DNA of 64,000 nt, taken from the NCBI GenBank assembly GCA_018401745.1, contig JAGYJY010000015.1, positions 1 to 64,000 on the forward strand, in the 5' to 3' direction. The notes beneath the pieces were generated by a model that searched no databases, was not told the DNA's origin, and saw nothing but the letters and a program-made list of their open reading frames with translations. Position numbers and translations under genes: made by a program. Numbering within the stretch: position 1 is the stretch's first letter; each line of letters begins with the position of its first letter. Source of the DNA: Pirellulales bacterium (lineage in GTDB: Bacteria; Planctomycetota; Planctomycetia; Pirellulales; UBA1268). Positions 3,601 through 62,168 of the stretch are shown one piece after another.

Positions 3601-3602
3601 AG

Positions 3603-6907: not shown

Positions 6908-6927
6908 CAAAGGATCACGGTGACCTT

Positions 6928-7551: not shown

Positions 7552-7640
7552 CTGTTCAAGCGACGCCGCCCAAAGCCGAGGTTTGGGGGGGCGCCACTCG
7601 CCGCATCCTGCGGCGGCAGACTACGTCCACAGTCTGCTAC
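7552..7640 (-). repeat. Family A three-hairpin repeat, copy 2 (truncated)
   Basis: Starts at the base after the sigma-factor stop codon and runs in the opposite orientation to copy 1. Hairpin 2 (CCCAAA-GCCGAGG-TTTGGG), hairpin 1 (GCCGCA-TCC-TGCGGC) and a terminal GCAGAC...GTCTGC pair are present. Most of hairpin 3 is missing. Confidence 0.8.
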
Positions 7641-18045: not shown

Positions 18046-19567
18046 GGTGCATCTCGGGGCTGGGTGCGAACGACCGCGATGGCGGCGTGTCGTGCTGGCA
18101 GCAGCCAGCTGACTGCGGCCAGTAGGATCACCATGGCGAGCACCGCGGGATGATTCCAGACGGGTTGCAACCGCCGCTCGGCTGTCCGCTCGGCTGCGAA
18201 GACAACCGCCTGGCGGATCTCCCGACGCGTCGCGTCGGCGGACCTGACTGCCATGGTGAGTTCGGCTCCCATCCGCTGTCGCAGCCTCGGCTCGGCGACG
18301 AAGCGAATGGCCGACCGCCAGAAGGCATCCACATCATCGCTTGAGCCTGCGATCCGATACCGCCAGGTTTCAAAAAGCAAGGCAACAACGCGGCCGGTGG
18401 GGGTGTGGTCCACCAGCATGGCGGGCTGTTTCGCCGCCGCCCTTGCGACCGCTGGCGCGCCGCCGTGCTGAGCAGCAAGGGGGCGATGGCGGTGCCCCGT
18501 TGGGCAGCGATGCTCGCGGGCAAGAACACCTGGGCCTGCGTCTGTTGGATCGCCTGCAGGAGCGGAGCCAGCCAGCGAAAGCCATCAGCCGCCGCCGCTG
18601 CCCAGACGCGATGCCCACGTGTGGCGGGCTGCGGCAAGGATGACGCCGCCGGTGTGCACGGCAGCAAGACTCCCAGCGGCGATGCGGCCAGGTTGGCGAG
18701 ATCACTGCGGCCATCCAGGCTCCAGAGAACGCCCAAACCATCTTCCTCGGCGGCTTCCACCAGTGCCAGGGCCACAGCCGCAGGCAGGTCGCGCGGGTCA
18801 AAGGAGCCGAGCACAACCACATCGAACGCCGCTGCTGCCTGCCTCGAACGAGGCAGCTGCTCCACGGCAGCGGAATCGAGCAGGATCAGCGTCACCTCAA
18901 CCCCGGGTGTGCCGCGGAGCAGGCGGCTGAGGTGGCGGATCTCCCAGCGGGCTGAGGCATCGATCAGCAGAACCTGCAGCGGACGCTCGGCGACGCCGCA
19001 GACCGCCGGCACGGCGCGGGAAGTCAATGCGGTGGTGCTGTCAGACGATTGGCCGGCATGTCGAGCGAAGCACTGATGCACGCCCGCCTCGGCTGGCTGC
19101 CAGGTCAGCTCGGCCCGCCAGAGCCTCCCCTGCCCTGCGGCTGCGTCGGCTCTGAAAGGAGCGTCGACCGTCGGCTCAAGAGCCGCTCGATCGAGCAGCC
19201 TGCCGGCTTCGTCAACCAGTTCCACCATCGGCGGCCCGGCCGCTCGACGCGGTTTCCCGCTTTCCGCTTCCCAGGCAATCGCCTCAGCGGTGATTGGCTC
19301 TCCGGCCACGGCCACCGCTGGCATCACGAGATCGACCAGCTGCGGCGCTCGGCTGTTGGCTGCCTGTGCGGGCGACTGCGGCTGTTCGCGGTGCAGCCCA
19401 CCGAGCATCACCACCAGCATGACGACGACCGCAAGCCGCGATGCAGCTGCCTGCCAGGTGGAGGTAGCAGCCAGGATGGCAAGCACCACGACCGCCGCCG
19501 TGGCACCAACCACAGCTGGATCAAGCTGCCACGCGACCTGCCAGAGAAAGGCCACCGGTTCGTTCAT
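18042..19567 (-). CDS. Membrane protein with class-I glutamine-amidotransferase-like domain (MoxR operon), one frameshift
   Basis: Two N-terminal transmembrane helices (around AVVGATAAVVVLAILAA and LAVVVMLVVMLGG) are followed by a beta-rich stretch. An alpha/beta domain follows: RPLQVLLIDASARWEIRHLS, VTLILLDSA, FDVVVLGSFDPRDLP, EEDGLGVLW. This is the GATase1-like fold found beside BatA-type proteins, with no visible catalytic Cys-His-Glu triad. The last part (MLVDHTPTGRVVALLFETWR and YRIAGSSDDVDAFWRSAIRF, then a membrane helix WNHPAVLAMVILLAAVSWLL) is in a second frame. The break lies at about 18440-18480 in a GGC-rich tract. It overlaps its neighbours at both ends. Confidence 0.65.
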
Positions 19568-41210: not shown

Positions 41211-41367
41211 GAAGAAAGGCCGCGGAAAGCTTTTTCCACGGACAGTTCGCAGACTGTGGAACACGTCTGCCGCCGCAGGATGCGGCGACCGGCGACCCCA
41301 AAAACCTCGGCTTTTTGGGGCTTCGCTTGAGTGGAAAAAGGCCATGGATGGCTTTTTCCACGGACAG
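41211..41367 (+). repeat. Family A three-hairpin repeat, copy 5 (full) preceded by a hairpin-3 fragment
   Basis: The full copy is 41249-41367: GCAGAC...GTCTGC pair, CCGCA-GGA-TGCGG, ACCCCAAAAA-CCTCGGC-TTTTTGGGG, and GTGGAAAAAGG...CTTTTTCCAC. A second hairpin-3-like piece with the same CCACGGACAG end lies at 41211-41245. The repeat ends directly against the stop codon of the HEAT lipoprotein gene, which occupies 41368-41370. Confidence 0.88.
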
Positions 41368-42087
41368 CTAGAACAGCTGCCGGATCGTTTCAGCCATGGT
41401 CGGCTGCGTGTCGCGGGCTTCAGGATCGGCCGCCCACGCTCGCCATGCGTTGACATCGTTGCCCAGGTCGCGGCCGCTCACCTGCCTCAACGAGTCAACC
41501 GCGCGATACTGCACCGCCGGATCGGGGTCTTCAAGAGCCCTTGCGAGCACCGCGATGGCAGCGGTGTCGCCCGTCTCGCCGAGGGCCCGAACGGCACGTA
41601 GACGGACGTCGATCTCTTCGTCGGTCTCCATGCAGCTGGCAAGCATCGCAATGGCTTCTTTGCCTCGTTTGCCACAGGCATCGCAGGCGGTCATCCGGAC
41701 CCGCGAGTCGGGGTCGCGGAGTCCGCCCTCACGGATCGCATTGGCGGCGGGGGTGTCAAAGTCTGCGGCGATCTCCAGGATCGAGCACCGCACGCGAGGA
41801 TCGTGTTCTTCCAGCAGGGTCTGGATCAGCCCCTGCGAAAACTGCACTTCAGCTGTGGTGCCAGCCTCCATGGCTTCCCGAGCTTCTTTTTTCAGGGCCG
41901 AGATCCGCTGGTCCGCGGTGTAGCCATACCGGGCAATCTGCTTCTCGGTGGACTCCGCGCTTCCCCAAGGCAGCCAGCCTGCGCAGCCAGTGGTGCTTGC
42001 CAGGATCACCACGATGCTGATCGCGTGGAGGGCCCTCGGCGTGATCGGAGTGATCGTGGTGTGCCGAAAAAGATCAGAGGCTGACAT
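41368..42087 (-). CDS. HEAT-repeat lipoprotein
   Basis: 239 residues. A membrane segment ends in a lipobox (ISIVVILASTTGCAGW). The rest consists of HEAT/PBS-lyase-like helical pairs: EEHDPRVRCSILEIAADFDT, LRDPDSRVRMTACDACGKRG, TDEEIDVRLRAVRALGETGD and LEDPDPAVQYRAVDSLRQVS. Such repeats usually bind proteins. It is probably tethered in the periplasm. The start at 42087 gives the lipobox a normal distance from the N-terminus. Confidence 0.8.
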   Translation of the reverse strand: MSASDLFRHTTITPITPRALHAISIVVILASTTGCAGWLPWGSAESTEKQIARYGYTADQRISALKKEAREAMEAGTTAEVQFSQGLIQTLLEEHDPRVRCSILEIAADFDTPAANAIREGGLRDPDSRVRMTACDACGKRGKEAIAMLASCMETDEEIDVRLRAVRALGETGDTAAIAVLARALEDPDPAVQYRAVDSLRQVSGRDLGNDVNAWRAWAADPEARDTQPTMAETIRQLF

Positions 42088-46896: not shown

Positions 46897-47265
46897 ATGC
46901 CCACGCTCACCGTTGAAGGCATCGGCAGTTTTGAAGTCCCGGCCGGCAAACGGCTCGTCAACGCTCTGGTTGATGAGTGCGGCGTCGACCAGCTTCACGC
47001 CTGCGGTGGCCATGCCCGCTGCACCACCTGTCGCGTTGAGTTTGTCGAGGGTGAGCCTGCCAAGATCACCAAGGCAGAGCAGGATGTGCTTGAGGCAAAG
47101 GGGCTTGCTGGCACGCCTGGCGTGCGGCTCTCCTGCCAGATCCTCTGCGAAGGAGACATGACGGTGCGGGCGACGAGCCGGCTTGCTGGTTCCGGCCGAC
47201 AGGATGCGGGAGGCCGCCCTGCGGATCAGCTGCAGCCTGATCCGGCTGAATGGCTCGAGCGGTAA
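46897..47265 (+). CDS. Plant-type 2Fe-2S ferredoxin
   Basis: 122 residues. The binding loop LHACGGHARCTTCRVEFVEG has three of the four cysteines (C-x5-C-x2-C) and LSCQILCEGDMTV supplies the fourth. This is the beta-grasp (YfaE/chloroplast) type. The last 25 residues are a loose Gly/Pro-rich tail that runs toward the repeat region. It follows the DUF1080-ThuA gene by 66 bp on the same strand and could be co-transcribed, although no functional link is evident. Confidence 0.9.
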   Translation: MPTLTVEGIGSFEVPAGKRLVNALVDECGVDQLHACGGHARCTTCRVEFVEGEPAKITKAEQDVLEAKGLAGTPGVRLSCQILCEGDMTVRATSRLAGSGRQDAGGRPADQLQPDPAEWLER

Positions 47266-47272
47266 GAACGCT

Positions 47273-47820
47273 CGGGCCAAGCCCGGGCTGATTCGCCGAG
47301 CGCCCGGGGGGGCCGCTCGGGGTGAGCCCGGGCTGATGAGCCGAACGTCCGGGGTCGCTCGGGGTGAGCCCAGGCCGATTCGCCGAGCGTTCGCTTCGCC
47401 ATCCTGGCTTCGCTCACTCGTGCATTCTCGCTTTCGCCCTCCGGGCTGCGCTCGACTGCAAGGCCGGCTCATTCGGCCCGGGCTCACCCCTCGCTTACGG
47501 GTTTAAGGGCGGCCTGTCCGCCGCAGGAGCGGCGGTCAGCGGTCGTCAAAAACCTTGGCTTTTTGACCGGCCGCTCTAGCCTGCGAAGGCCAGGATGGCT
47601 TCGCAGGCGTGAAGCGAGTGCGCTCGACTGCAAGGCCGGCTCATTCGGCCCGGGCTCACCCCTCGCTTAAGGTTTGAAGCGAGACGGCCTGTCCGCCGCA
47701 GGAGCGGCGGTCAGCGGCCGGGGGGCGCGCAAGCGGGACGGGTCTTCGGGTGCCGCAGGCACCTCGGCTTCGCCGAGGCCGCTTCGCGGCCCGAGGACCC
47801 GTCCCGTTCCCTCACCCTTC
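47273..47820. repeat. Composite repeat locus: family C, three-hairpin (112-bp type) unit, family B
   Basis: From left to right: three copies of the 42-bp family C unit (about 47273-47400), its conserved tail ending GGCCCGGGCTCACCCCTCGC, one 112-bp-type three-hairpin unit at 47511-47618 (with GTCAAAAA-CCTTGGC-TTTTTGAC), a second partial tail and hairpin 1 (47619-47723), and a perfect family B cloverleaf at 47734-47806. It fills the convergent gap after the ferredoxin gene. Confidence 0.85.
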
Positions 47821-47825
47821 GCTCA

Positions 47826-47960
47826 TTGACAGAAAAGTGGAGGCTCGGCGGGTCGGCGAACGCTCGAGGAGCATAAAGGCCTATCTTGGCCAGCGACGAG
47901 ACTTTTGCCGCCTGCCGAGCCGGACCACCCGCGCGCGGTCTCCCTTCCACCCGCGCGCGG
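47826..47960. repeat. Family D repeat, copy 1
   Basis: Begins TTGACAGAA and continues GGAGGCTCGGCGGGTCGGCG, then AACGCTCGAGGAG. It ends CCGCCTGCCGAGCCGGACCA, followed by two CACCCGCGCGCGGTCTCC-like units. GGCTCGGC and GCCGAGCC form an inverted pair. The whole segment matches 60538-60700 closely. It lies just beyond the 3' end of the minus-strand TIM-barrel gene. Confidence 0.8.
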
Positions 47961-47970
47961 TCTCCTGTGC

Positions 47971-48810
47971 TCATTCTTCGTGCGACGTGGCTCTTTCCAG
48001 GAATGCGGCGGTGCGGGCGGCTTCTTCGGCCCAGCGGTGGGAGTGGCGGGGGAGTTCGGCGTGCAGGCCGCCGGTGTAGCCGGCCGACTGCAGGGCACGC
48101 AAGAGTGGGGGGAAGTCGATCACACCTGTCCCGAGCGGCAGATGCTCGTGGATGCAGGGCCGCATGTCGTCGAGGTGGACGTTCACGAGCTGCTCGGTGC
48201 GGTCGCGGAGCGTGTCGGCCAGCGGCCACTCCCCCATACACTCCATGTGGCCGAGGTCGATTGTCAGGCGGAGCTGCTCGGGGGTGCCTAGGCGGTCTCT
48301 CAGCTGATCGAAGCGGGTGAGGCTGTCGATAAACATGCCGGGCTCGGGCTCAAAGCCCAGCGGCATGCTGTGGCTGGCGGCATGGTCGAGCACCGGCTGG
48401 AGGCTCTCGGTCAGTCGATCCCAGAGCTCGCGTTCGCCGCCCGCATCGCGGACCACGCCGCTCCAGAGTGAGACGCAGGCAGCTTTGAGGTCTGCGGCGA
48501 GGTCGATCGCCCGGCAGAGAAAATCGATCCGCCGTCGGCAATCGTCGGGGCTCGTCGAGAGCAGCGTCGGCTCATGCTTGCGAAGCGGGTCGAGGAGATG
48601 GCGGGCACCCGTTTCCACCACGCAGGCCAGCGACCGTTCCTCGAGCACCTGCTGCCAGGCAGCCACCTCGCGAGCAAACCCGACGTCGTACGGGTTGAGC
48701 AGGTGACGGTCGGGGGTGATCGCGAGCGAACGGTAGCCGAGGTCGGCAAGGTGGCCTGCCGCAACAAGCGGATCACCGTCGATGCTGTTGGTGCTCCAGC
48801 CTGGGAGCAT
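47971..48810 (-). CDS. Sugar-phosphate isomerase/epimerase-like TIM-barrel protein
   Basis: 279 residues of the xylose-isomerase/AP-endonuclease-2 barrel fold. Metal-site candidates follow the family order: the Glu of LGFEPEPGMF, the Asp and His of LTIDLGHMECMGE, VNVHLDDMRPCIHEHLPLG (His/Asp), and the C-terminal Glu of GGLHAELPRHS. The N-terminus (STNSIDGDPLVAAGHLADLG) is also typical. It lies 36 bp downstream of a UbiA-family gene and two genes from another barrel, so a shared pathway is likely. Substrate unknown. Confidence 0.82.
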   Translation of the reverse strand: MLPGWSTNSIDGDPLVAAGHLADLGYRSLAITPDRHLLNPYDVGFAREVAAWQQVLEERSLACVVETGARHLLDPLRKHEPTLLSTSPDDCRRRIDFLCRAIDLAADLKAACVSLWSGVVRDAGGERELWDRLTESLQPVLDHAASHSMPLGFEPEPGMFIDSLTRFDQLRDRLGTPEQLRLTIDLGHMECMGEWPLADTLRDRTEQLVNVHLDDMRPCIHEHLPLGTGVIDFPPLLRALQSAGYTGGLHAELPRHSHRWAEEAARTAAFLERATSHEE

Positions 48811-48846
48811 GGCTTTTCCTCGCCGGTGGCTTGGAGCGGCAGACGA

Positions 48847-49803
48847 TCAGGTCGGTGGGATCAGCCGTCGGCCTGCCAGGAACGGAATCAGGAGCATGAA
48901 GGAGACAATCGCCCACGACTCGCCGCAGGGGGCCAGCACCAGCGCCGCATCGAGCGTGATGATCGACATGATCGCATTGCCCACTGCCCGCTGCACCAGC
49001 ACAGGCTGCCGGGAGATGATCCCCATCACACACCGATACACAACCGACGCTGTGAGCACCCCCCACAGCAGCAGCCAGTTGTCGAGACCGGCCCGAGCGA
49101 GCCAGAGTGAGCCCCCCTGCCCGACCAGCCAAACCGTGTAGCCCGCTGCAATCGCCAGCCCGCAGACCATCACCGCCGTCGACATCACCAGCCAGCGGCG
49201 GCTGCTGAGGGTCGCCTCGTAGCGGGCGAAGAGGGTGATACCCACGACGTAGATACCCATGCCGGCAACGGGCAGCCACTCTGCTGCTTCGTTGGGCCCG
49301 CCGGCTGCCGTCATGCCCAGCAGCCAGTTGAGGCTGCGGCAGCTTCCCATCACCAGCGGGCCTGCAGCGGTGGGCTTGGCATGGCGATCGTAGAGGTAGA
49401 CCGCCGCAGCGAGTGCCGCAGCAACGCCGGCGACTGCCGGATGCCCACTGAGGACCGCAGCGGTGATGCCCGCGGCCACACCACCTGCGGCTGTCAGCCA
49501 GCCCACAAATGCGGCCGTTGCCGGAGCGATCTGGCCACGTGGCAAAGGCCGTTCGGGCCGCTCCACAGCGTCGAGTTCCTGATCAAACACATCATTGAGC
49601 ACCATGCCCGCTGCATACAGCAGCAGCGAGGCTGCGGCGACGGCCCAGAAGGCTGCCGGCGGAGCCGCCACGCTCTCCGGCCGTGCAATCACCAGCCAGC
49701 CGGCCAGCACATCGGCAACGGCCGTGGCATGATTCGGCAGCCGCAGCAGCCGGAGCCAGGCGACCACCACGCTGCCGCGTTGCTGTGCCACCGCCGTGCT
49801 CAT
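48847..49803 (-). CDS. UbiA-family prenyltransferase-like membrane protein
   Basis: 318 residues with about eight helices. The first Asp-rich motif is GMVLNDVFDQELDAVERPER (N-D-x3-D-x4-D), as in UbiA enzymes that bind prenyl diphosphate through Mg2+. The second is AVYLYDRHAKPTAAGPLVMG, where only one Asp is conserved. Helices such as AAFWAVAAASLLLYAAG and WAIVSFMLLIPFLAG are clear. The gene sits between two TIM-barrel genes, overlapping the upstream one by ATGA. EboC-type UbiA proteins also lie beside TIM-barrel genes, but other Ebo genes are missing here. Confidence 0.82.
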   Translation of the reverse strand: MSTAVAQQRGSVVVAWLRLLRLPNHATAVADVLAGWLVIARPESVAAPPAAFWAVAAASLLLYAAGMVLNDVFDQELDAVERPERPLPRGQIAPATAAFVGWLTAAGGVAAGITAAVLSGHPAVAGVAAALAAAVYLYDRHAKPTAAGPLVMGSCRSLNWLLGMTAAGGPNEAAEWLPVAGMGIYVVGITLFARYEATLSSRRWLVMSTAVMVCGLAIAAGYTVWLVGQGGSLWLARAGLDNWLLLWGVLTASVVYRCVMGIISRQPVLVQRAVGNAIMSIITLDAALVLAPCGESWAIVSFMLLIPFLAGRRLIPPT

Positions 49804-50672
49804 GAACCGACCGTCTCCACGATGCCGAGCAGATACTCGCGGGCGGCGCGGGCGGCCTCATCAGGCCGATCGCGATAGGGATAGAGCTCAACGGTCACCC
49901 ATAACTCTGGCGTGTGGGCAGCGATCGCGGCAAGCACGCCCGCGAAGTCGATGGCCCCCTCTCCCGGCACCAGATGATGATGCACCCGCGTGGCGGCGAT
50001 ATCCTCCACGTGGTAGTGGCGGGTGTGCTTCACGAGCTGCGGAATCCAGCTCGCGGGGTCGTCTTCCACGCAGTAGGCATGACCGACATCAAAGTTCAGG
50101 CCGAGCGACGGATGGTCCACCCGCTCGGCAAACTCAAGAAACTGCTCAAACGTCTCGATCAGCAGGCCAGGCTCTGGCTCGACCAGCAGGGCCACCTCGG
50201 TTTCCGCAGCCACCTCCAGCACCGGCATGATCTCTTCGTAGAAGATGTCCGTTGCCTCGGCCCGCGTCTGCCCCGGCTGAATCTCGCCACCCGGCTCCGT
50301 CGAGATCGACGACGCTCCCAGGTCTGCGGCAAGCCGCAGGGCCCGCTTGGTGTGCTCGCGGCGAATCGCCCGGTAGTGCGGATCGGGATCGGTCCAGCCC
50401 GGATGCCAGTAGGGCTGCCTGGGGTCCGCGACTGCGTTCATCATGAACGCATTGATGTTGGAGATGACGAGGCCGTGCTTCGCCAGGCTCTGGCGAATCG
50501 CTTCCTTCTGCACGTCGAGCAGACCCGCCGGCCAGGCATGGGGCACATCGGCGAGCAGTTCGATGCCGGCATAGCCAAGCCCCGCCACCTGAGCGATCGC
50601 AGAGTCGACCGTCACGTCGAGGTAGGCGTTGGAACTGAAAGCAAGCCGGCTGGCGAAATCGTCACGATTCAA
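49800..50672 (-). CDS. Sugar-phosphate isomerase/epimerase-like TIM-barrel protein
   Basis: 290 residues, a second xylose-isomerase-like barrel. It begins RLAFSSNAYLDVTVDSAIAQ and GLGYAGIELLADVPHAW. Metal-site candidates are the Glu of VALLVEPEPGLLIE, the Asp and His of LGLNFDVGHAYCVEDD, the HYHVEDIAATRVHHHLVPGE stretch, and the Glu of VTVELYPYRD. The set resembles a divalent-metal sugar isomerase or epimerase. First gene of the three-gene unit; the ATGA overlap with the UbiA gene implies coupled translation. Confidence 0.82.
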   Translation of the reverse strand: MNRDDFASRLAFSSNAYLDVTVDSAIAQVAGLGYAGIELLADVPHAWPAGLLDVQKEAIRQSLAKHGLVISNINAFMMNAVADPRQPYWHPGWTDPDPHYRAIRREHTKRALRLAADLGASSISTEPGGEIQPGQTRAEATDIFYEEIMPVLEVAAETEVALLVEPEPGLLIETFEQFLEFAERVDHPSLGLNFDVGHAYCVEDDPASWIPQLVKHTRHYHVEDIAATRVHHHLVPGEGAIDFAGVLAAIAAHTPELWVTVELYPYRDRPDEAARAAREYLLGIVETVGS

Positions 50673-50756
50673 GGAAAGTCCCCCTCAATACCAAGTGTCT
50701 CGGTGCGTTCAGAGTCTACCTTTCCCAGGACTTGCGACCATGCCTCGCGGCTGTTT

Positions 50757-50930
50757 CCCTGTGGGCCGCTCGGGGTGAGCCCGGGGCCGCCCCTCCGGAC
50801 GCTCGCTGCGGGCCCTCCAGGCCCTCGCTCGCTCGGAGATCCGCTTCGCTTCGGCCCTCCGGGCGTCGCTCGCTCCTCTACGCCGGAGGGTCAGCCCCGG
50901 GCTCACCCCTCGCTTACGGGTTTTAAGGAC
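50757..50930. repeat. Divergent family C-like inverted repeat
   Basis: GGGCCGCTCGGGGTGAGCCC near 50760 and GCCCCGGGCTCACCCCTCGC near 50894 are the two arms seen in family C, with a different interior rich in GCTCGCTCGG and GGCCCTCCAGG hairpins. It leads straight into the 112-bp array. Confidence 0.7.
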
Positions 50931-51306
50931 GGCCTGTCCGCCGCAGGAAGCGGCGGCCTGCGGCCGGTCAGAAACCTTGGCTTTCTGACTGGTCGCGTTA
51001 GCCTGCGAAGGCCAGGAAGGCTTCGCAGGCGTGAAGCGAGCCGGCCTGTCCGCCGCAGGAAGCGGCGGCCTGCGGCCGGTCAGAAACCTTGGCTTTCTGA
51101 CTGGTCGCGTTAGCCTGCGAAGGCCAGGAAGGCTTCGCAGGCGTGAAGCGAGCCGGCCTGTCCGCCGCAGGAAGCGGCGACCTGCGGCCGGTCAGAAACC
51201 TTGGCTTTCTGACTGGTCGCGTTAGCCTGCGAAGGTCAAGAAGGCTTCGCAGGCGTGAAGCGAGCCGGCCTGTCCGCCGCAGGAAGCGGCGGCCTGCGGC
51301 CGGTCA
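50931..51306. repeat. 112-bp tandem array of three-hairpin units (3.3 copies)
   Basis: GGCCTGTCCGCCGCAGGAAG recurs at 50931, 51043, 51155 and 51267, exactly 112 bases apart, with only a few substitutions. Each unit holds CCGC-type hairpin 1, GTCAGAAA-CCTTGGC-TTTCTGAC, and CCTGCGAAG-GCCAGGAAGG-CTTCGCAGG. The fourth copy stops after hairpin 1. As 112 is not a multiple of three, the open frames that cross it change register in each unit and are not genes. Confidence 0.93.
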
Positions 51307-51314
51307 GGGATTGA

Positions 51315-51475
51315 ACGGGACGGGTCTTCGGGTGCCGGAGGCGGATTGAACGGGACGGGTCTTCGGGTGCCGGAGGCACCTCGGCAAAGCCGAGGCCGCT
51401 TTGCGGCCCGAGGACCCGTCCCGCTTGCGCGTGTATCCGCTTTGCGGCCCGAGGACCCATCCCGCTTGCGGGTGT
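51315..51475. repeat. Family B cloverleaf repeats (one full, two partial)
   Basis: The full copy is 51351-51423, with arms CGGGACGGGTCTTCGGG and CCCGAGGACCCGTCCCG and three inner hairpins. A left-arm fragment lies at 51316-51341 and a right-arm fragment at about 51430-51456. Together with the array before it, this fills the gap before the ABC permease 3' end. Confidence 0.85.
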
Positions 51476-51543
51476 ATCTCCCGGGCGTCGCTTGCGCATG
51501 GAGGCCTGAGGGTCCCCGGGACGCTGCCGTGAAGCTGCTCTGC

Positions 51544-52362
51544 TTAGCTTGAGGCGCTGCGGTATCTGTTGATGGCGGCCTGGAAGGTGAGGCGGGAGAG
51601 GCCGAGCATGACAGCGGCAGCCACAACGGCGGCGATGATCAGTCGCACGTCGCCGGTGCCGATGGGGAGCGCCAGGCTGCGGGCCGGCACGTTGACCACG
51701 AGCAGGATCGGCAGCACGAAGGTGCAAACCATCCGCAGAGGTCCGCCCCACGGCCCCGTGTAGATCTCAGCGGGATAGCGAGAAAAGTTGGTGATGTAGA
51801 ACCAGAAGTCGTAGAGGCCTTGGTTGCGACCCATCAGGATCGTGGCGGCGGCGAGCATCACGATGAAGCCGTAGAGAATCGCCACACCGCAGGCGAGCAT
51901 CAACGGGTAGAGCACCCAGGCGGCAGTCGTTGGCGCGGTGTCGAGTCTCGACACACCCCAGGCGACGAGGGCTACGCCCACGAGCCCATTGGCGAAGGCA
52001 GAAAACTTGACTCGATGCATCGAGAGCAGAAACTGGGCATCGATCGGCTTCACCAGCGTGGTGTCGAGACCGCCGGTGCGGACCATCTCGGCAAACTCTT
52101 CAGCGCTCGGCATGAAAAAGGCCTGCACAATCGCGTTGATGATCAGGCCTGTGCCGAGAAACACGAAGAACGGTGGCTTCGTCCAGCCGCTGCCCGCACC
52201 GATTTCCGAGGTGTAGGAAAACACCAGCAGGTAGAAGGCGATGTTCATCGCCATCCAGCCGAGGCTCGTCACGCACTCAAGCACAAAGTTGAGGCGAAAC
52301 GTCATGTCGCGAATAAGGCTGGCCACGACGAAGGTGCCGAAGATCTGGAAGTAGCGAACCAT
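51544..52362 (-). CDS. ABC-2 type transporter permease (first of two)
   Basis: About 272 residues with six predicted helices (for example SLGWMAMNIAFYLLVFSY, FFVFLGTGLIINAIVQAFF, WVLYPLMLACGVAILYGFIV, IIAAVVAAAVMLGLSRL). GLDTTLVKPIDAQFLLSMHR is the coupling region typical of the COG3694-like permeases. The ATG at 52362 has GGAGG upstream and lies 7 bp after the neighbouring stop, which is better than a TTG at 52380. With the next two genes it forms a complete exporter. Confidence 0.85.
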   Translation of the reverse strand: MVRYFQIFGTFVVASLIRDMTFRLNFVLECVTSLGWMAMNIAFYLLVFSYTSEIGAGSGWTKPPFFVFLGTGLIINAIVQAFFMPSAEEFAEMVRTGGLDTTLVKPIDAQFLLSMHRVKFSAFANGLVGVALVAWGVSRLDTAPTTAAWVLYPLMLACGVAILYGFIVMLAAATILMGRNQGLYDFWFYITNFSRYPAEIYTGPWGGPLRMVCTFVLPILLVVNVPARSLALPIGTGDVRLIIAAVVAAAVMLGLSRLTFQAAINRYRSASS

Positions 52363-52369
52363 CGCCTGC

Positions 52370-53242
52370 TCAGCCTCCAAACGCGCTGTAGCGGCGGGTG
52401 CCGCGGAGGAAGGCGATCCGGCAGGCGACCGCGGCGACCACCACCCACACCGCTTCTACCAGCAGCCCGGAGACCAGCTCCTGGCCTTGGATCTTCCCCA
52501 GCCAAACCGCACAGGGGAAATACGCCGTGTACTGAAACGGCAGCAGCTGCACGAGATCTCCGAGGCTGTAGCCGGAGCTTGAGAGCGTGATCGAGTCGAG
52601 CATGTCTAGGGGAAACATGTGCCCGGAGAGCAGATACTGAGCGAGCATGTAGACAAAGATCAGGCTGGAGACTTCGAGCACCCAGAAGCCGAGCATGCCG
52701 AGGGTTGCTTCCAGAAAAAATCCCAGCAGAAACGACATCACGAGCGTGGCCAGGAAGGCCGCGATCGTGGGCACCTCCGGCAGCGGCGGAAAGAACCCTC
52801 GACAGAGGAAAAACATCAGCCCGAAGGGAGCCGCCGCGATGGCAAAGTAGACGAGCTTGTGGGCGACGCGGGCTGCCATCAGGAAGCCGACGTAGTCGAT
52901 CGGCTGCACGAGATACTTCTTCACCGAGCCGTCGCGAACGCTGCGGGCGATGCCACCGGCAAGCCCGGGCATGCTCGAGAACGACCGGGCCATCATCGTC
53001 AGCAGGTAGTAGGCGACGAAGTCGTTGCGGGAATAGCCCGCAATCAACTCGGAGCCGGCCGCGGAAAAGACGGCCGTCCAGAGGAAGATCTGTGTCACGA
53101 TCGGCAGAAACCGAAACAGCGTGCCGACGAAGAAGTCGCCGCGATGCGCCAGCCTGTCTGCCACGTTGATCGAGAGCATCGTGGTCCAGCCGTGCCAGCT
53201 CGGCAGCAGCTGCTGCCACGAGAACGTCGCCATGCCGCTCAT
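52370..53242 (-). CDS. ABC-2 type transporter permease (second of two)
   Basis: 290 residues with six predicted helices (LFRFLPIVTQIFLWTAVF, KLVYFAIAAAPFGLMFFL, FLATLVMSFLLGFFLEATLG, LVEAVWVVVAAVACRIAFL). GSVKKYLVQPIDYVGFLMAA is the conserved cytoplasmic loop of COG4587-like permeases. It begins in a 4-bp overlap with the ATPase gene. The two permeases are homologous in layout and probably form a heterodimer. Cargo unknown. Confidence 0.85.
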   Translation of the reverse strand: MSGMATFSWQQLLPSWHGWTTMLSINVADRLAHRGDFFVGTLFRFLPIVTQIFLWTAVFSAAGSELIAGYSRNDFVAYYLLTMMARSFSSMPGLAGGIARSVRDGSVKKYLVQPIDYVGFLMAARVAHKLVYFAIAAAPFGLMFFLCRGFFPPLPEVPTIAAFLATLVMSFLLGFFLEATLGMLGFWVLEVSSLIFVYMLAQYLLSGHMFPLDMLDSITLSSSGYSLGDLVQLLPFQYTAYFPCAVWLGKIQGQELVSGLLVEAVWVVVAAVACRIAFLRGTRRYSAFGG

Positions 53243-54291
53243 GCCTGTCCCCCGCTCGCCGTTTCGGCCAAGGCATACTCGTCGCGGCCCGCCCGAAAGA
53301 GGTCGGCAATCACATCCTCCAGAGGCACATCCTCGACGGTGACATCGAGCACCGACTCACCGGCGAGAATCCGGGGGAGGGTTTCGGCGATCCGCTCGCG
53401 ATCGATTCGCAGCCGCACCTGGGGGCCGTCCCGTTCGCAGGGATATCCCCAGCCAGCGATGGTGGTCTCCGACGGCGGCTGCTCGAAGTCGAGGGTCACG
53501 ATCTTGTGGGTTGTGAAGCGGTCGATAATCTCGGTGAGCGTGCCGTCGTAGAGGATCCGGCCGTGCGTGATCACCACCACCCGCCGGCAGAGGGCAGCCA
53601 CATCCTTCATGTAGTGGGTTGTCAGCAGGACCGTGGTGCCCCGTTCGGTCTGCACCTTCCGCAGAAAGCCGTGGATCGAGTGCTGGGCCACAACATCAAG
53701 GCCGATGGTTGGCTCGTCGAGCAGCAGCACCTCCGGCTCGTGCAACAGCGCCGCGATCAGTTCGAGCTTCATCCTCTCACCGAGCGAGAGCTCCCGCACG
53801 GGCTGGTGAATCAGCCGGCCCACGTCGAGCAGTTCGACCAGTTCGTCGCGGGTCTGCTCAAATCGCTGGCGATCGAGGCGGTAGATCACCTGGTGCAGGC
53901 GAAAGCTCTCCGCAGCCGGCAGGTCCCACCAGAGCTGGTTTTTCTGGCCCATCACCAGGGCAAAGCGTCGCCGGAAGTCGTCGTGCCGCTGCCAGGGCAC
54001 ATGGCCAAGCACCGTGGCCGCGCCTGTGGTGGGGGTGATGATCCCTGCGAGGAGCTTCAAGAACGTCGTCTTGCCGGCCCCATTGGGCCCCAGGATCGCG
54101 ACAAACTCGCCGGGCTCCACCGTCAGTGACACGCCCCGCAAGGCCTCGACCGTGCGGCTTTTGCGATGAAAGAGCCCCCGGATGCTGCTCGCCAGGCCTT
54201 CTTGCTTGTCGGCCACACGGTAGTGCTTGGCCAGGCCATGCACGTCAATCACTGGCGAAAGGCTGCGGGAGTCGCTGCTGGAGGAGGTCAT
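53239..54291 (-). CDS. ABC exporter ATP-binding protein
   Basis: 350 residues. Walker A is VAILGPNGAGKTTFLKLLAG, the Q-loop is FALVMGQKNQLWWDLPA, the signature is VRELSLGERMKLELIAALLH (LSLGE in place of LSGGQ), Walker B is EVLLLDEPTIGLDVVAQHSI, and the H-loop is TTVLLTTHYMKDVAALC. The KNQLWWDLP stretch and the LSLGERMK form are typical of the COG4586 ATPases that partner COG4587/COG3694 permeases. A C-terminal domain of about 90 residues follows. The start at 54291 is directly downstream of a TATACT. Confidence 0.92.
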   Translation of the reverse strand: MTSSSSDSRSLSPVIDVHGLAKHYRVADKQEGLASSIRGLFHRKSRTVEALRGVSLTVEPGEFVAILGPNGAGKTTFLKLLAGIITPTTGAATVLGHVPWQRHDDFRRRFALVMGQKNQLWWDLPAAESFRLHQVIYRLDRQRFEQTRDELVELLDVGRLIHQPVRELSLGERMKLELIAALLHEPEVLLLDEPTIGLDVVAQHSIHGFLRKVQTERGTTVLLTTHYMKDVAALCRRVVVITHGRILYDGTLTEIIDRFTTHKIVTLDFEQPPSETTIAGWGYPCERDGPQVRLRIDRERIAETLPRILAGESVLDVTVEDVPLEDVIADLFRAGRDEYALAETASGGQA

Positions 54292-54299
54292 GGCGAAGC

Positions 54300-54305
54300 A
54301 GTATA
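54300..54305 (-). promoter_or_regulatory. Candidate -10 box of the ABC exporter operon
   Basis: TATACT on the minus strand ends 8 bases before the ATG at 54291, so a transcript would begin at or next to the start codon (leaderless). The -35 region is weak and no ribosome-binding site is visible. Confidence 0.35.
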
Positions 54306-54357
54306 GGCCCCAGCGAGCAAACACCAGTATCATCCGTTCGCTTCGTACAGGATCATC

Positions 54358-54867
54358 ATGCACCTCCCATCGTTTCGTATTGGCCTCGGCCACGACACCC
54401 ACCGGCTGGAGCCGGGAGGGCCACTCATGCTCGGTGGCCTCGCCATCGACCATGACCGCCGCGCCGTTGGCCACAGCGACGCGGACGTGCTCCTGCACGC
54501 GATTACCGACGCGATTCTGGGGGCGGCCGCCCTGGGCGACATTGGCGAGCTGTTTCCCGACACCGACCCGGCCAACAAGGGCCGCGATTCGGCTGAAATG
54601 CTTGCCACCGCTGCCGCCCGGCTTGCGTCGGCCGGCTGGACGATCGCCAACCTGGATTGCGTGATCTTTGCCCAACGGCCGAAAATCCTGCCGCATCGCG
54701 AGCGGATGCGGGAGCGGGTTGCTGCGATCCTCGGCCTGGCTGTCGATCAGGTCGGGCTGAAGGCGAAGACCGGTGAGGCTGTGGGGCCTATTGGCGAGCA
54801 GCTGGCGATCGCCGCTGAGTGCGTCGCCCTGATCACGCCGGCTGGCGGTGACAGCCCACCGGCATGA
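54358..54867 (+). CDS. ispF: 2-C-methyl-D-erythritol 2,4-cyclodiphosphate synthase
   Basis: 169 residues. MEP-pathway enzyme of isoprenoid synthesis. Motifs are IGLGHDTHRLEPGGPLMLGG (zinc Asp/His), VGHSDADVLLHAITDAILGA, LGDIGELFPDTDPANKGRDS and NLDCVIFAQRPKILPHRERM. The C-terminal KAKTGEAVGPIGEQLAIAAE corresponds to the family's KATTTE...GEGIAA segment. AGGAT precedes the ATG. It is divergent from the exporter operon and followed by cysS. Confidence 0.94.
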   Translation: MHLPSFRIGLGHDTHRLEPGGPLMLGGLAIDHDRRAVGHSDADVLLHAITDAILGAAALGDIGELFPDTDPANKGRDSAEMLATAAARLASAGWTIANLDCVIFAQRPKILPHRERMRERVAAILGLAVDQVGLKAKTGEAVGPIGEQLAIAAECVALITPAGGDSPPA

Positions 54868-54873
54868 GCCGTG

Positions 54874-54911
54874 CCCTTGCCACCCAACACAGCCCTTGCC
54901 ACCCAACACAA
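54874..54911. repeat. 18-bp direct repeat between ispF and cysS
   Basis: CCCTTGCCACCCAACACA occurs at 54874-54891 and 54894-54911, separated by two bases. No element is recognised around it. Confidence 0.85.
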
Positions 54912-54977
54912 TGGATTCCAACCTGAGCTTCGGGCCGTCCGATGACGGGCCGCTTGAATGATGTGGAGAGACGAGCG

Positions 54978-56567
54978 ATGAGCACCAACGACGCCACAAC
55001 ACCCCCTGCCGAGGCCGCGGGCCTTCCGGCCATCCAGGTCTACAACACCCTCTCCCGCGAGAAGGAGCCGATGGTCACGGTGCAGCCGGGCCGCGTCGGC
55101 ATGTATCTCTGCGGGCCGACGGTTTACAAGCCGAGCCACATCGGCCATATGGTCGGCCCGGTGATCTTCGACACCGTCAAGCGGCACCTCTCCTATTCTG
55201 GCTGGCAGGTGACCTGGGTGGTCAACATCACCGACGTCGACGACAAGCTGATCGCCGAGAGCAGCCGTCGCGGGATCTCGATGACGGCGCTCGCCGAGGA
55301 GATGACCGCGGACTACCTCGAGAATCTTGCGGCACTCGGTGTCACGAGCATCGATGAGATGCCCAAGGCCACCGATCACATCGATACGATCATCAGCTTT
55401 ATCGAAGGCCTGATCAGCAAGGGCTTTGCCTACGCCAGCGACGGCGACGTCTATTTTGATGTGCAGAAGGATGCCGACTACGGCAAGCTCACCAACCGTT
55501 CGGTGGACGCGATGCAGGGCGAGGGAGGTTCGACCGCCGACCGCAAGCGGTCCGCAGCCGACTTTGCCCTCTGGAAGAAGGCCAAGGACGGCGAGCCCAG
55601 CTGGGACAGCCCCTGGGGCCCTGGTCGCCCGGGCTGGCACATCGAATGCTCGGCAATGAGCGAAGCCATTCTCGGCAACCACTTCGATATCCATGGCGGT
55701 GGGCTCGATCTCGTCTTTCCGCATCACGAAAACGAGATTGCCCAGAGCGAATCGCTGCACGGCTGCCCGATGGCGAGCTACTGGATGCACAACGGCCTGA
55801 TGCAAGCTTCCGGAGCTTCCGGCAAGGTCGGAGGGCGGCCGCGAGACGCCGATGACGGAGAGGCCGCGAGCGTTGAGGCTCAGACGGCTGCCAAGATTTC
55901 CAAGTCGACCGGCGCCGAACCGTTTAAGCAGCTGCTCGCCCGGCATGAGCCCGAGGCGATTCGGATGCTGCTGCTCTCCACGCACTACCGCAGCCCGATC
56001 CACTTTGGCGAGGAGCCTCTGGCCGAGAGCGGGCGGGCCCTCGAGGCCTTTCGCAGGCTGTTTGCCCGCAGCGAACGGATCAGCGGGACCTCGTTTTACA
56101 ACCTCCCCTGCCGCACCCGCCGCGAAGGCGACACGCAAATCGCGGCTGCCGGCGACGAGGCAGCCGCCCTGCGGACGAGGTTCCTGGCTGCCATGGACGA
56201 CGACTTTAACACCGCCGTCGCAATCGCCTCACTCTTCGACTACGTCCGTGTCGTCAACAAATACATCGATCAGCACCAGCTCGAAGCCACGAAGCCTGAG
56301 GCCGAGCTGGCCAGACTGGCGGCCCTGATGCGCACGCTGCGGGAACTGACCGGTGTGCTCGGACTGTTTCTCGAAGCTCCCCAGGCTGACGGCGGTGCCG
56401 ACGAAGCGCTCGTTGCCGGGCTGATGGAACTCGTGATTGAAATCCGAGCCAACGCCCGCAAGGCGAAAGATTTTGCGACCGCCGACCTCGTGCGTGATCG
56501 GCTCGGAAGCCTCAGCATCGTGTTGGAAGACCGGGCAGACGGCACCGGCTGGTCGCGAAAGGCCTGA
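54978..56567 (+). CDS. cysS: Cysteinyl-tRNA synthetase
   Basis: 529 residues. Class I synthetase: MYLCGPTVYKPSHIGHMVGP holds the zinc Cys and the HIGH motif, WVVNITDVDDKLIAESSRRG follows, then PGWHIECSAMSEAILGNHFD and FPHHENEIAQSESLHGCP carry further zinc ligands, and the KMSKS equivalent is AAKISKSTGAEPFKQLL. An insert of about 30 residues (ASGASGKVGGRPRDADDGEA...) lies between YWMHNGLM and KISKS. The ATG at 54978 has GGAGAG upstream. It probably forms a unit with ispF. Confidence 0.95.
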   Translation: MSTNDATTPPAEAAGLPAIQVYNTLSREKEPMVTVQPGRVGMYLCGPTVYKPSHIGHMVGPVIFDTVKRHLSYSGWQVTWVVNITDVDDKLIAESSRRGISMTALAEEMTADYLENLAALGVTSIDEMPKATDHIDTIISFIEGLISKGFAYASDGDVYFDVQKDADYGKLTNRSVDAMQGEGGSTADRKRSAADFALWKKAKDGEPSWDSPWGPGRPGWHIECSAMSEAILGNHFDIHGGGLDLVFPHHENEIAQSESLHGCPMASYWMHNGLMQASGASGKVGGRPRDADDGEAASVEAQTAAKISKSTGAEPFKQLLARHEPEAIRMLLLSTHYRSPIHFGEEPLAESGRALEAFRRLFARSERISGTSFYNLPCRTRREGDTQIAAAGDEAAALRTRFLAAMDDDFNTAVAIASLFDYVRVVNKYIDQHQLEATKPEAELARLAALMRTLRELTGVLGLFLEAPQADGGADEALVAGLMELVIEIRANARKAKDFATADLVRDRLGSLSIVLEDRADGTGWSRKA

Positions 56568-56598
56568 GGCGGGCAGACGCGACAAGCAGGCGTGTGGG

Positions 56599-57706
56599 CT
56601 ATCGCTTGGAAATGGCCCGATAGCGGCGGAATCGCACAAACGCTGCAGCACCCAGGCCGGTGGCCAGCAGGGCCCAGCTGTGAGGCTCCGGCACAGGCGT
56701 CGGGGCCGTCACCGCCAGCGACAGCATGTTTTGCGAGAGGCCGCCACCATTGTCGGAGATCAGCAGCAGGCTCTGCAGCCCGCTGTCGAGCGTCGGGCCG
56801 TAGGTCATTCCCTCGAAGTTGGACTGGGTGCCAAAGTCGTCTTCCCACAGCAGCGTCTTGCTCAGGGGCGTGAAGCCGCCGGCATCGATGGTGGCAAAGG
56901 CCGAGACGTCGGTGGCGGTGCTGGTGTCGACGTACGTAAAGCCGTGAGCGGAACGTGGGCACGAACGCCCCGCCAAGCTCCCGCTCAAGCACCAGAAGCT
57001 CGGTGCTGCTCCAGGGCAGGATTTCGACCACTCCGCTCCGCTCTGCGGAGATAAAAGGATTCATCGCCGTGATCGGGTCGGTGCGGTAGCCCCATTGGCC
57101 TACGGCGGTCAGACTGCCGTCGAACTGCTGGATCCGCACCCAGCTCCCGGTCGTCGTCGTCGACAAGGGACCGTCGGGCACGAGCGCCTCTTCGTTGGCA
57201 GTCCACAGCCCGCCTGCCCCCCAGGCCAGCGATTCCAGGCCCATGTTGCTCTGCACGTTCGACGGCTGATAGATCGCCGGCACGGCCACACTTCCCAGCG
57301 TGTTGCCGCTGGTGTCGAACTCCGTGATCGTGGAGCTCACCTCATCTGCAATGAACACGCTGCTCGTCGTCGCCCGGTAGGTGATCCCTTCAGAGTCGCT
57401 GCCCATGCCGGCTGCGGCAATGCTGCCCGTCACGCTCGGCGACCCGGTCAGGCGGCCTGTCGCGGTGTCGACAACGGCGGTGATCTCCCAGATCGACGCT
57501 GCCCCGTTGTCACCCACGGCGTAGTAGGTCGAACCGCCTACATAGGTAATGCCACTGAGCTCCGCAGCCCCGGTCGCTCCCGACGACACCGCCACGACCC
57601 CCTGCCCTGGATCCGTCACCACAGGGGCCGCGCGGCCGGTCTGCCCAAGCCCCAGCAGTGAGATCAAAGCAACGATGAGTGGCGTGGTGAGCGACTGGCG
57701 ACCCAT
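56599..57706 (-). CDS. Exported PEP-CTERM protein with esterase-like/phytase-like propeller domain, one frameshift
   Basis: About 368 codons. A signal peptide (LIVALISLLGLGQTGRAAP) leads to a beta-propeller-like domain: AAELSGITYVGGSTYYAVGD, GSDSEGITYRATTSSVFIAD, NMGLESLAWGAGGLWTANEE, FISAERSGVVEILPWSSTEL. In a second frame come SAHGFTYVDTSTATDVSAFA and SNFEGMTYGPTLDSGLQSLL, then the sorting tail VPEPHSWALLATGLGAAAFV with RFRRYR. The pattern fits the esterase-like activity of phytase family. One extra base near 56954-56960 explains the break. The tail predicts processing by an exosortase encoded elsewhere. Confidence 0.8.
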
Positions 57707-57926
57707 GCTGAACGTTCTCCGGAAATCCTCGTCGCCCGTGTCTGCAGTGGCGGGCGTCGCGTCATCGAGAATGTGAGCAAATCGTGTGCCGGGCGAGGCT
57801 GGTTCTCGCAGGCGACTGGAAAGCTGCGGTTTCGTGAGGATTCCGAGGCATGACGGCGGGCGGCACTGGCGGGGGCTGGCCGGGGGTCACCGATTTGGTG
57901 GCACGAAAATGGTGAGACAAGTGGGG

Positions 57927-58230
57927 TCGCTCGGGGTGAGCCCAGGCCGATGAGCCGAGCGTTCGGGGCCGCTCGGGGTGAGCCCAAGCCGATGAGCCGA
58001 GCGTTCGGGGCCGCTCGGGGTGAGCCCAAGCCGATTCGCCGAGCGTTCGGGGTCGCTCGGGGTGAGCCCAAGCCGATTCGCCGAGCGTTCGCTTCGCCAT
58101 CCTGGCTTCGCTCACTCGTGCATTCTCGCTTTCGCCCTCCGGGCTGCGCTCGACTGCAAGGCCGGCTCATTCGGCCCGGGCTCACCCCTCGCTTAAGGTT
58201 TTAAAGGGCGGCCTGTCCGACGCTGCGCGT
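57927..58230. repeat. Family C: four 42-bp tandem units plus conserved tail, then hairpin-1 module
   Basis: CGCTCGGGGTGAGCCCA recurs every 42 bases (57928, 57970, 58012, 58054). A conserved tail runs to the closing arm CGGCTCATTCGG, then CCCGGGCTCACCCCTCGC, which is an imperfect reverse complement of the unit's GGGTGAGCCCAAGCCGATGA arm. A GGCCTGTC-CGACGC-TGC-GCGTCG-type hairpin follows. Confidence 0.88.
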
Positions 58231-58295
58231 CGGTCTGCGGCCGGGGCGGCGGCGGAGGGGCTCGTGGGCAGCGGGGGGCGCGGGTGTTGCGCAAG

Positions 58296-58458
58296 CGGGA
58301 CGGGTCTGCGGGTGCCGCAGGCTACCTCGGCTGTGCCGAGGCCGCTGTGCGGCCCGAGGACCCGTCCCGTTCAGGCATGCGCAAGCGGGACGGGTCTGCG
58401 GGTGCCGCAGGCACCTCGGCTGTGCCGAGGCCGCTGTGCGGCCCGAGGACCCGTCCCG
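58296..58458. repeat. Two family B cloverleaf repeats
   Basis: Copies at 58296-58369 and 58386-58458, nearly identical except for one extra T in the first. Arms are CGGGACGGGTCTGCGGG and CCCGAGGACCCGTCCCG. Inner hairpins are GGTGCC-GCA-GGCACC, CTCGGC-TGT-GCCGAG and GCCGC-TGT-GCGGC. Confidence 0.9.
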
Positions 58459-58563
58459 TTCAAATCGCCTTCGCCCGCTGTTTGAGGATGGATCTGTCCG
58501 CCGCGGTCTGCGGCCACGGGCAGGCGGGGCCCGGGGAAGCGCGAGCGGGACGTGCGCTGAGGC

Positions 58564-60502
<1,939 letters not shown>

Positions 60503-60537
60503 TTCAATCACCCCCGTGAGGGCATCCCCTTCTCGTC

Positions 60538-60705
60538 CTTGACAGAACTGGTGAGGCTCGGCGGGTCGGCGAACGCTCGCGGAGCGTTTGGCCTATCCTG
60601 GCCCAGCGACGCGACTTTTGCCGCCTGCCGAGCCGGACCATCCGCGCGCGGTCTCCTCACCACCCGCCCGCGGTCTCCTCACCACCCGCGGGCGGTCTCT
60701 TTCCG
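60538..60705. repeat. Family D repeat, copy 2
   Basis: Closely matches 47826-47942, from TTGACAGAA through GAGGCTCGGCGGGTCGGC to GCCGCCTGCCGAGCCGGACC, followed by three rather than two CACCCGCxCGCGGTCTCC units. It again lies just beyond the 3' end of a minus-strand gene. Confidence 0.82.
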
Positions 60706-60743
60706 CTCGCTCGGTGCGTGGGCAAGGCTGGCTTCCTCGGGCT

Positions 60744-62168
60744 TTACAGCGTTTTGAGGTATTCGAGGACAGCCTGTTTTTCTTCTTCGCTGAGCATGTC
60801 GGGAAAGGTGTGGCCAGCGGCGGACTTGCCGGGCTTGCTGGTGTCGAAGTGCCGGCGGCGTTCGGCCGGTGGCATCCGCTCCTGGGGCATGGCGTCGAAA
60901 GTGGTCACCTCCAGGCCGACCTGCGTCTGGTCATAGCCTGTCGGCGTTCGCTTCCAGACGGCCGGCCGCTCGTCTGGATGCAGCAGGTGCCAGAGTGTGG
61001 GCACAGAGCCGTTGTGTAGATACGGTGCCGTGGCCCAGATGCCGTCGAGCGGCGGGGCGACGTAGCCCTCCGGTTCGGCCAAGCCGCCGTCGTCGCCGTA
61101 GTGCCCAAACCAACTCTCGTTGAGGTCACGGCGGTTGCGAGCGGCGAGCGCGTCGTACCGCACGCGGTCGGTGCCGATCTCATCGATGGGAATGATTCGC
61201 TCGGGATAGGTGTCTGCCGACGCTGCGTAGGTGCCGTGGCACTCGCTGCAGCTCTTTTCAAATACAACCCTTCCCTGCTCGGCACGTGACGCGTCGATTG
61301 CCCACGGCCACGTTGGCGGCTCAAGCGAGTCGATCCAGGCCTCGATACTGCGAAAGTCGTCTTCCCATTCGCGAAACTTCTCCGGCCCGTTTTCTTTGAC
61401 AAGCAGAAACTGCATCAGCATGCGATGGCCAGCAGGGGCAAATCCGTCGGCATAGAGTCGCTGTTTTTTCTTCACGTGCCACCAGGCCGGCGCATCCATG
61501 TCGTGGTGGGGCATGTCGAGCAGGGGCGGCTTGGAGAGGATCGTCAGGTCCCGGTCGCGGTGGTGCATCAGTGCCATCCCAAACACCACGGCATTGGTCG
61601 TGCCGGCCGTCGTTCCCAACGGCAGCAACAGCGACCCAACGTCCATGTGCCCAAGTGGCTTTCGCTGGCGAATCTTGACCAGACGGACATCTTCGGTGAG
61701 CGTCTCCAAGGCGTAGGTCGAGTTGGGCACACCAGGAATCACGCGACCGGCCACCTGCCCCTGATGGCAGGCCAGGCAGCTCATGGTCCAGGAGCCATCC
61801 GCGCCAACGACATACTGCAGCGACCGGGAAGGATCCTCGGGAGCTGGCGTGAGCCCATACCGCTCCATCGCCATCAGCCGTCGCTCGGCAGGCGTCGCCT
61901 CGAATGCCCGGCTCCGAAGTGGCTCCTCCCACACCTGGGGAAGTGCGTCGAAGATCTCCTGATCGAGGTCCGCAGGAAGGTAGGCCTTCGACCGGAGGAG
62001 CCGATATCCCTCCGCGGCCTCGGGAGCGGCTGGCTCGCCATCAGCTGAGGACGCAACCGCGTTGCCGTTGCCCACGCCACCGGCCGTTGGGAGCAGACAC
62101 GCGACGAGCAAGGCCCACACGCAGGTCGCTCCAGCAGCCAGCCGCCGTTGGCGTCTTCGGCATTTCAC
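60744..62168 (-). CDS. Exported dihaem cytochrome c
   Basis: 474 residues. A signal peptide (AAGATCVWALLVACLLPTAG) and two haem attachment sites, MSCLACHQGQVAGRV (near residue 130) and KSCSECHGTYAAS (near residue 310). The region EGYVAPPLDGIWATAPYLHN, with GSVPTLWHLL, is the conserved loop of dihaem peroxidase/thiol-oxidase-like cytochromes. The final segment (GKSAAGHTFPDMLSEEEKQAVLEYLKTL) is cytochrome-like too. It acts in the periplasm as an electron carrier or peroxidase-like enzyme. It is divergent from mgtE. Confidence 0.88.
   Translation of the reverse strand: MKCRRRQRRLAAGATCVWALLVACLLPTAGGVGNGNAVASSADGEPAAPEAAEGYRLLRSKAYLPADLDQEIFDALPQVWEEPLRSRAFEATPAERRLMAMERYGLTPAPEDPSRSLQYVVGADGSWTMSCLACHQGQVAGRVIPGVPNSTYALETLTEDVRLVKIRQRKPLGHMDVGSLLLPLGTTAGTTNAVVFGMALMHHRDRDLTILSKPPLLDMPHHDMDAPAWWHVKKKQRLYADGFAPAGHRMLMQFLLVKENGPEKFREWEDDFRSIEAWIDSLEPPTWPWAIDASRAEQGRVVFEKSCSECHGTYAASADTYPERIIPIDEIGTDRVRYDALAARNRRDLNESWFGHYGDDGGLAEPEGYVAPPLDGIWATAPYLHNGSVPTLWHLLHPDERPAVWKRTPTGYDQTQVGLEVTTFDAMPQERMPPAERRRHFDTSKPGKSAAGHTFPDMLSEEEKQAVLEYLKTL

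Follow-up and report, generated by a model that had tools for sequence, protein, structure and literature searches.

Dispersed intergenic repeats are usually discussed relative to genes, and strong orientation with replication is a property of polar motifs of ~ 8 nt such as KOPS and Chi. BIME and REP sequences are described as intergenic, palindromic, and mosaic, with variable copy number (PMC2817692, PMC6006769), and the REP units as short (20–40 nt) and tagged at the end by GTAG or CGTC (PMC3733652). The REP tandem arrays (GI–GIII) of P. fluorescens SBW25 comprise five forward arrays at ~ 2 Mb and six reverse arrays at ~ 4 Mb (PMC3116915). For the IS200/IS605 elements IS608 and ISDra2, insertion is coupled to replication via the lagging-strand template (PMC6006769).

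We analyzed a window comprising positions 1–64,000 of contig C14 in a 2.88-Mb draft genome (28 contigs, 74% complete), in which four sites carry composite repeats headed by a hairpin that we call C. Like BIME and REP sequences, the C composites are intergenic, palindromic, mosaic, and variable in copy number, but their modules measure 70–150 nt instead of 20–40 nt, and they keep one fixed order without alternation and an orientation that goes with GC skew. No GTAG or CGTC terminal tag was seen when the ends of the main modules (70–150 nt) were read by eye. With REPINs and their RAYTs they share dispersed non-autonomous hairpins, and the SBW25 arrays, the nearest precedent found, are a case of replichore-like polarity; those are 11 arrays in two regions, whereas C occupies 83 places over 18 contigs. 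As in IS200/IS605, orientation is tied to replication, with GC skew as the proxy (82/83), yet the C element contains no transposase gene, and several C carriers have no detected Y1 transposase, which sets C apart from both systems. KOPS and Chi are likewise strongly oriented, but C, a hairpin of 150 nt followed by a nested tail, turns over between species. We found no report of such a family in the open-licence literature, as far as its accessible text goes.

Module composition and order

The modules are designated u (42-nt unit), H and K (the two loop types of the C hairpin), e (the 3' end of C), g or y (short hairpin), T (two-hairpin module), B or b (the GGGACGGGTC..GACCCGTCCC hairpin), D (hairpin), and r (22-nt repeat). 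In this notation, Site 1 (47269–47965) reads u u u H e g T e g B D r r, Site 2 (50766–51477) reads K e gT gT gT g B with additional truncated B pieces, Site 3 (57925–58461) reads u u u u H e y B B, and Site 4 (59998–60699) reads u u H e y b e y b D r r r (Table 1). The 167-nt C query aligns to 47353–47520 of Site 1 at 98%. A first-pass annotation of the window had described a shared left-to-right order of C, hairpin module(s), and B, with D at two of the loci and copy numbers that differ; we found the modules in that order at all four loci, D at Sites 1 and 4, and differing site readings, with variable copy number also seen over the composite sites of the genome. ThiC, which is encoded between two of the four sites, shares 87% identity with its counterpart in a Planctomycetota bacterium, 79% with that of Botrimarina, and 77% with that of Rhodopirellula, the latter two being distant named genera; the host is accordingly taken to be a planctomycete, probably of the Pirellulales. 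Elsewhere in the window (6107–6255), at least seven copies of a 20-nt unit, ACACAGCGGAGCTGCGGCTA, lie head to tail.

Table 1. Repeat modules located in the window
Feature	Positions	Strand	Evidence
Site 1, three u units into C hairpin of H type (H 47353–47496)	47269–47496	+	sequence reading, repeat mapping, module queries
Site 1, g then T (together the three-hairpin module of the first-pass annotation)	47508–47618	+	module queries, folding
Site 1, partial second C 3' end (e) and g	47619–47720	+	repeat mapping, module queries
Site 1, B hairpin	47727–47810	+	module queries; fold z -5.9
Site 1, D hairpin and two 22-nt repeats (r)	47827–47965	+	module queries
Site 2, C hairpin of K type	50766–50915	+	fold z -4.5; orthologous K hairpin in G003
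Site 2, three 112-nt g-T units and last g	50928–51302	+	repeat mapping, module queries
Site 2, B hairpin (51344–51427) with truncated B pieces on either side	51309–51477	+	repeat mapping, module queries
Site 3, u units and C hairpin of H type (H 58051–58194)	57925–58194	+	sequence reading, repeat mapping, C query
Site 3, short hairpin y and two B hairpins	58200–58461	+	module queries
Site 4, u units and C hairpin of H type (H 60040–60183)	59998–60183	+	C query; fold z -3.6
Site 4, y-b, then second e-y-b	60190–60507	+	repeat mapping, module queries
Site 4, D hairpin and three 22-nt repeats (r)	60540–60699	+	module queries; site empty in G003 and G002
Solo pair of B hairpins without C, adjoining a reversed D-like piece (3568–3602)	3403–3557	+	repeat mapping, module queries

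Genome matches were scored for 40 of 103 first-look candidate repeats, and sub-module queries were run over 45 stretches of the same genome, the window, and 56 short loci, all picked around already known matches and together covering part of the genome (about a third plus the short loci). The scored matches of a single module numbered as many as 64 across the genome, and the five modules that were folded were all stable, at 3.0–5.9 s.d. below dinucleotide shuffles, so that the modules are not chance sequences. The survey found 92 clusters, 71 of which hold at least two module classes and are referred to as composite sites. Their grammar runs from repeated 42-nt units through the C hairpin and the short hairpin to the two-hairpin module (which is optional), B, D, and the 22-nt repeats, with C leading in nearly all 71 and missing in just two.

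The preferred order claimed for the four loci extends to the 71 composite sites, where only T and B are free relative to each other (12:6). By first occurrence, u precedes H in 50:0 sites, e precedes g in 65:0, H precedes B in 61:0, and B precedes D in 21:0; the exceptions are one each for H-e, H-g, H-T, and g-B, and two for D-r. Copies per composite site range from 0–4 for u, 0–3 for T, 0–2 for both B and D, and 0–5 for r. The tail is nested, since D occurs with B in 21/21 sites, B with g in 60/63, and g with e in 65/66, and the composites have a sharp 5' edge and a variable 3' end. Strand agreement within sites was complete for the 466 oriented modules (466/466, the near-palindromic B not counted). 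The likeness to enterobacterial BIMEs proposed in the first-pass annotation is therefore partial: the mosaic build, intergenic position, fixed order, variable copy number, and larger modules stand, while the alternation of BIMEs is missing and Y1/RAYT was not detected in several carriers. This fixed grammar bears on the assembly of mosaic repeats, a long-standing question that could be tested across congeners.

Copies of D without C were observed at C6:159673, C6:367540, and C6:367639, and, from the match table only, at C4:132997 and C9:28488, and each of them runs counter to the C polarity of its contig. Among the C sites with called flanking genes, 54/55 are intergenic; the exception is a spurious short e match inside a gene (C7:94037), which was kept in the gene contexts (n = 55) given below.

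Folding gave C as a branched hairpin of ~ 150 nt, with a long stem bearing inner hairpins. Across 35 C copies from four genomes, double changes that keep pairing were seen in 15/37 pairs, and in 15 K-type copies the number of compensatory cells was 17, compared with a mean of 4.7 after shuffling (0/500 shuffles reach this value; slid controls gave 0–3), although these covariation and mismatch counts share ancestry and are non-independent. On the sense strand, A.C mismatches were more common than G.T (G.U), with 26 vs 8 and 10 vs 3 cells in alignments A1 and A2, which makes a sense RNA unlikely. The better candidate for the folding molecule is DNA, or the antisense strand. The C alignment has an invariant core, CTTCGCTCACTCG, and the same motif served to select most of the copies. 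Rfam searches at gathering score over the window returned a single tRNA and no match for the modules, and a search at E ≤ 1 over 47200–61000 gave nothing credible, only implausible sub-threshold matches.

Orientation with GC skew

The most striking property of C is one on which the first-pass annotation was silent, namely its orientation with replication-linked GC skew. The C 3'-end motif occurs at 83 places in the genome, 15 forward and 68 reverse, while the same motif read backwards, as a control, gave 0 and 0. We found that 82/83 places lie on the G-rich strand of their own contig, with agreement on 18/18 contigs, and that within each contig all copies are co-oriented, save one of ten on C4. 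Skew was taken as the repeat-masked GC skew of 46 stretches, and its sign was compared with the majority C orientation per contig, the two matching on all 18 motif-bearing contigs (contig sign test, 7.6e-6 two-sided). Contig C21 has the weakest skew (-0.0099, mixed, with 4/11 stretches positive), yet all 15 of its C copies agree. The sole reversed copy of the 83 is at C4:37653, where the surrounding skew is negative, so that no local inversion is evident. By the usual bacterial rule the G-rich strand is the leading strand, and we infer by this convention that it is so here.

Transcription does not account for this polarity. Flanking genes of the C sites (n = 55) run both against C in 18 cases, both along C in 13, convergently in 12, and divergently in 12, and with our own gene-calling script, used in place of a standard caller, gene direction was balanced at 366 with the skew and 346 against it. 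The majority gene strand agrees with C orientation on only 10/18 contigs. Skew at third codon positions (GC3), averaged over both gene strands, agrees with C on 18/18 contigs. The C family thus ignores gene direction and follows replication-linked skew. The polarity is also specific to the C composites, given that 6/13 copies of E, a control family of intergenic hairpins from this genome, go with the skew within the surveyed stretches. Copies of E occur within the window in both orientations, at 6793–6908, 7556–7634, 16115–16232, and 41252–41368.

Distribution and turnover among relatives

The C query matched 27 of 59 genomes searched, our own included, and all of the matches fall in a single taxonomic family. 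Within that family, 27/36 genomes match and 9/36 do not, and no match to the C query was found in 23 genomes from other families of the order. The stretches of relatives used for orientation were chosen around listed matches, and the copies counted are part of each genome's set. Among the matches listed, C copies follow the skew in 32/32 cases (21/21 contigs) in the congener G003, matches < 40 bits not being counted, and in 17/18 cases in G006, of another genus, where one match ≤ 40 bits was dropped (17/19 with it). In two further genera, the corresponding count among the matches listed is 20/27 in G035 (four such matches dropped), with inverted pairs at some sites, and 20/30 in G033 (matches < 60 bits not in the count), with no significant bias; neighbors in G033 point the same way in 5 cases and different ways in 8. 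Polarity is therefore strong in this genus and in one other genome (G006), and weak elsewhere. A universal polarity in the family was considered and is not supported; in three g8 genomes, motif places on shared contigs are mixed in direction.

Orthologous sites in congeners, the states of which were read by eye from sequences and match gaps, served for the comparison of presence and absence proposed earlier. Sites 1 and 4 are both empty in G003, which carries a D-like element at Site 3 and, at Site 2, only a K-type C oriented as in the window. G002 has an empty Site 4 and, at Site 3, a C that is again in the same orientation. The nearest congener, G001, whose assembly breaks at repeats and leaves most of the tested stretch uncovered, has a K-type C at Site 1 where the window has H; the far side of this site lies on a different contig, where B, D, and r are seen. 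These empty or differently filled sites indicate that elements are gained and lost, and swap loops, at shared positions. D-like elements fill some shared intergenic sites in G002 and G003 (loci L336, L338, and L287), which suggests shared insertion hot spots.

The 48 copies of the H core hardly differ from one another (pairwise identity 0.995 on average, median 1.000), while the six other module classes measured have mean pairwise identities of 0.937–0.948. This points to a recent burst or to homogenization, and replacement or conversion at old sites, as the K loop in G001 would indicate, may explain part of the uniformity. An IS200/IS605-type element would have a fixed target at its left end and no duplication; the left flank of C often ends in TGGG or TGGGG, and the empty sites are too diverged for mapping of the joint. 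No target-site duplication, such as a MITE of a DDE transposon would leave, was seen by eye in the C flanks, and the 3' ends vary.

Proposed mobility at the replication fork and alternative readings

The common direction of these hairpin strings hints that a mobile element coupled to the replication fork is involved. We favor, at a probability of roughly 45%, the reading of C as a non-autonomous element that moves as single-stranded DNA coupled to the fork. Insertion at the fork by way of single-stranded DNA would fit the near-uniformity of the copies, the sites that are empty in relatives, the hairpin build, and an orientation that is almost absolute. Composites headed by C would then form a genome-wide non-coding family mobilized in step with replication, presumably by an enzyme acting on single-stranded DNA, and entry of C into one strand of the fork would give the same direction all along a replichore, so that orientation would be set by insertion rather than by selection. 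C would keep its sharp 5' edge and carry a nested downstream tail of g or y, then B, then D and r, and the tandem units u, T, B, and r may expand or shrink afterwards. Against fork-coupled mobility stand the weaker orientation in G035 and the lack of significant bias in G033 among the matches listed, the reversed copy on C4, the mixed skew of C21, the solo D copies that point the opposite way, and the outcome of the Y1_Tnp and Y2_Tnp profile searches, which pointed to no mobilizing enzyme.

The main rival is a polar chromosomal signal, in which a protein would read C directionally in segregation, fork restart, or recombination control, comparable to KOPS or Chi, and mis-oriented copies would be lost. 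Near-absolute polarity at the 83 places of this genome and, among the matches listed, the 32 copies of G003 would fit such a signal, as would the conserved, covarying structure and the invariant core, although the motif of that core also picked most of the copies. However, the length of the C copies and their turnover among congeners speak against it, as does the weak polarity in G033, and any function would be dispensable in the 9/36 genomes of the family without a C match; we consider this reading unlikely. The C family is a clean natural record of either single-strand fork-coupled mobility or a polar chromosome signal, and the two could be separated by experiment.

Rather less probable is that C composites are of the REP/BIME/REPIN kind and are mobilized by a RAYT (Y1 transposase). 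Intergenic hairpin mosaics would be expected of such a system, Y1 enzymes use the lagging-strand template (PMC6006769), polar REP tandem arrays are reported in SBW25 (PMC3116915), and our genome has two neighboring Y1_Tnp genes (C17:16380–16724 and 18186–18482). Yet seven module queries gave no match in C17:9001–25000 around both genes, orientation never alternates within sites, and Y1_Tnp (PF01797) was not detected in C-bearing G001, G002, G003, G014, G023, and G030, drafts that are 82–97% complete and in which absence is no proof. RAYT/Y1 was rejected as the driver because the Y1 genes of this genome lie away from the repeats and none was detected in several carriers.

Strand-biased loss, in which C would insert both ways and one hairpin orientation would be deleted in lagging-strand synthesis, is very unlikely: stable hairpins in all five folded modules would favor it, but C is nearly self-complementary and would expose similar hairpins either way, the hairpins of family E in the same genome lack polarity, and 82/83 demands near-complete loss. 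Transcription terminators or 3'-UTR structures would explain stable hairpins that by eye are often near stop codons, but are highly improbable when C orientation is independent of flanking genes and 12/55 sites lie between divergent genes. Just as improbable is a structured RNA encoded by C, which the real covariation would suit but which has no Rfam match at gathering score, only implausible ones below it, and a sense strand on which G.U is rarer than A.C, opposite to the expectation for a sense RNA; C might conceivably encode an antisense RNA.

For fork-coupled mobility, an enzyme beyond the known Y1 and Y2 families is proposed, because Y1 was not detected in several carriers and Y2 does not track the repeat. 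It is possible, and we advance it tentatively, that the C composites form a new replication-polarized class, in which a branched hairpin would enter one fork strand without known Y1 (RAYT) or Y2 enzymes and carry nested hairpins in fixed order throughout the genus. If so, the intergenic DNA of the genus would hold a near-perfect map of replication direction. The IS91/Y2 type of driver had been considered on account of the sharp 5' and variable 3' ends, and was rejected for lack of correlation with the repeat: Y2_Tnp (PF04986) was not detected in C-bearing G002, G009, G010, G018, and G022, and is present in G004, which lacks C. Many PF04986 matches in the taxonomic family f1 are short, aligning to just the start or the end of the model, and look like decayed fragments.
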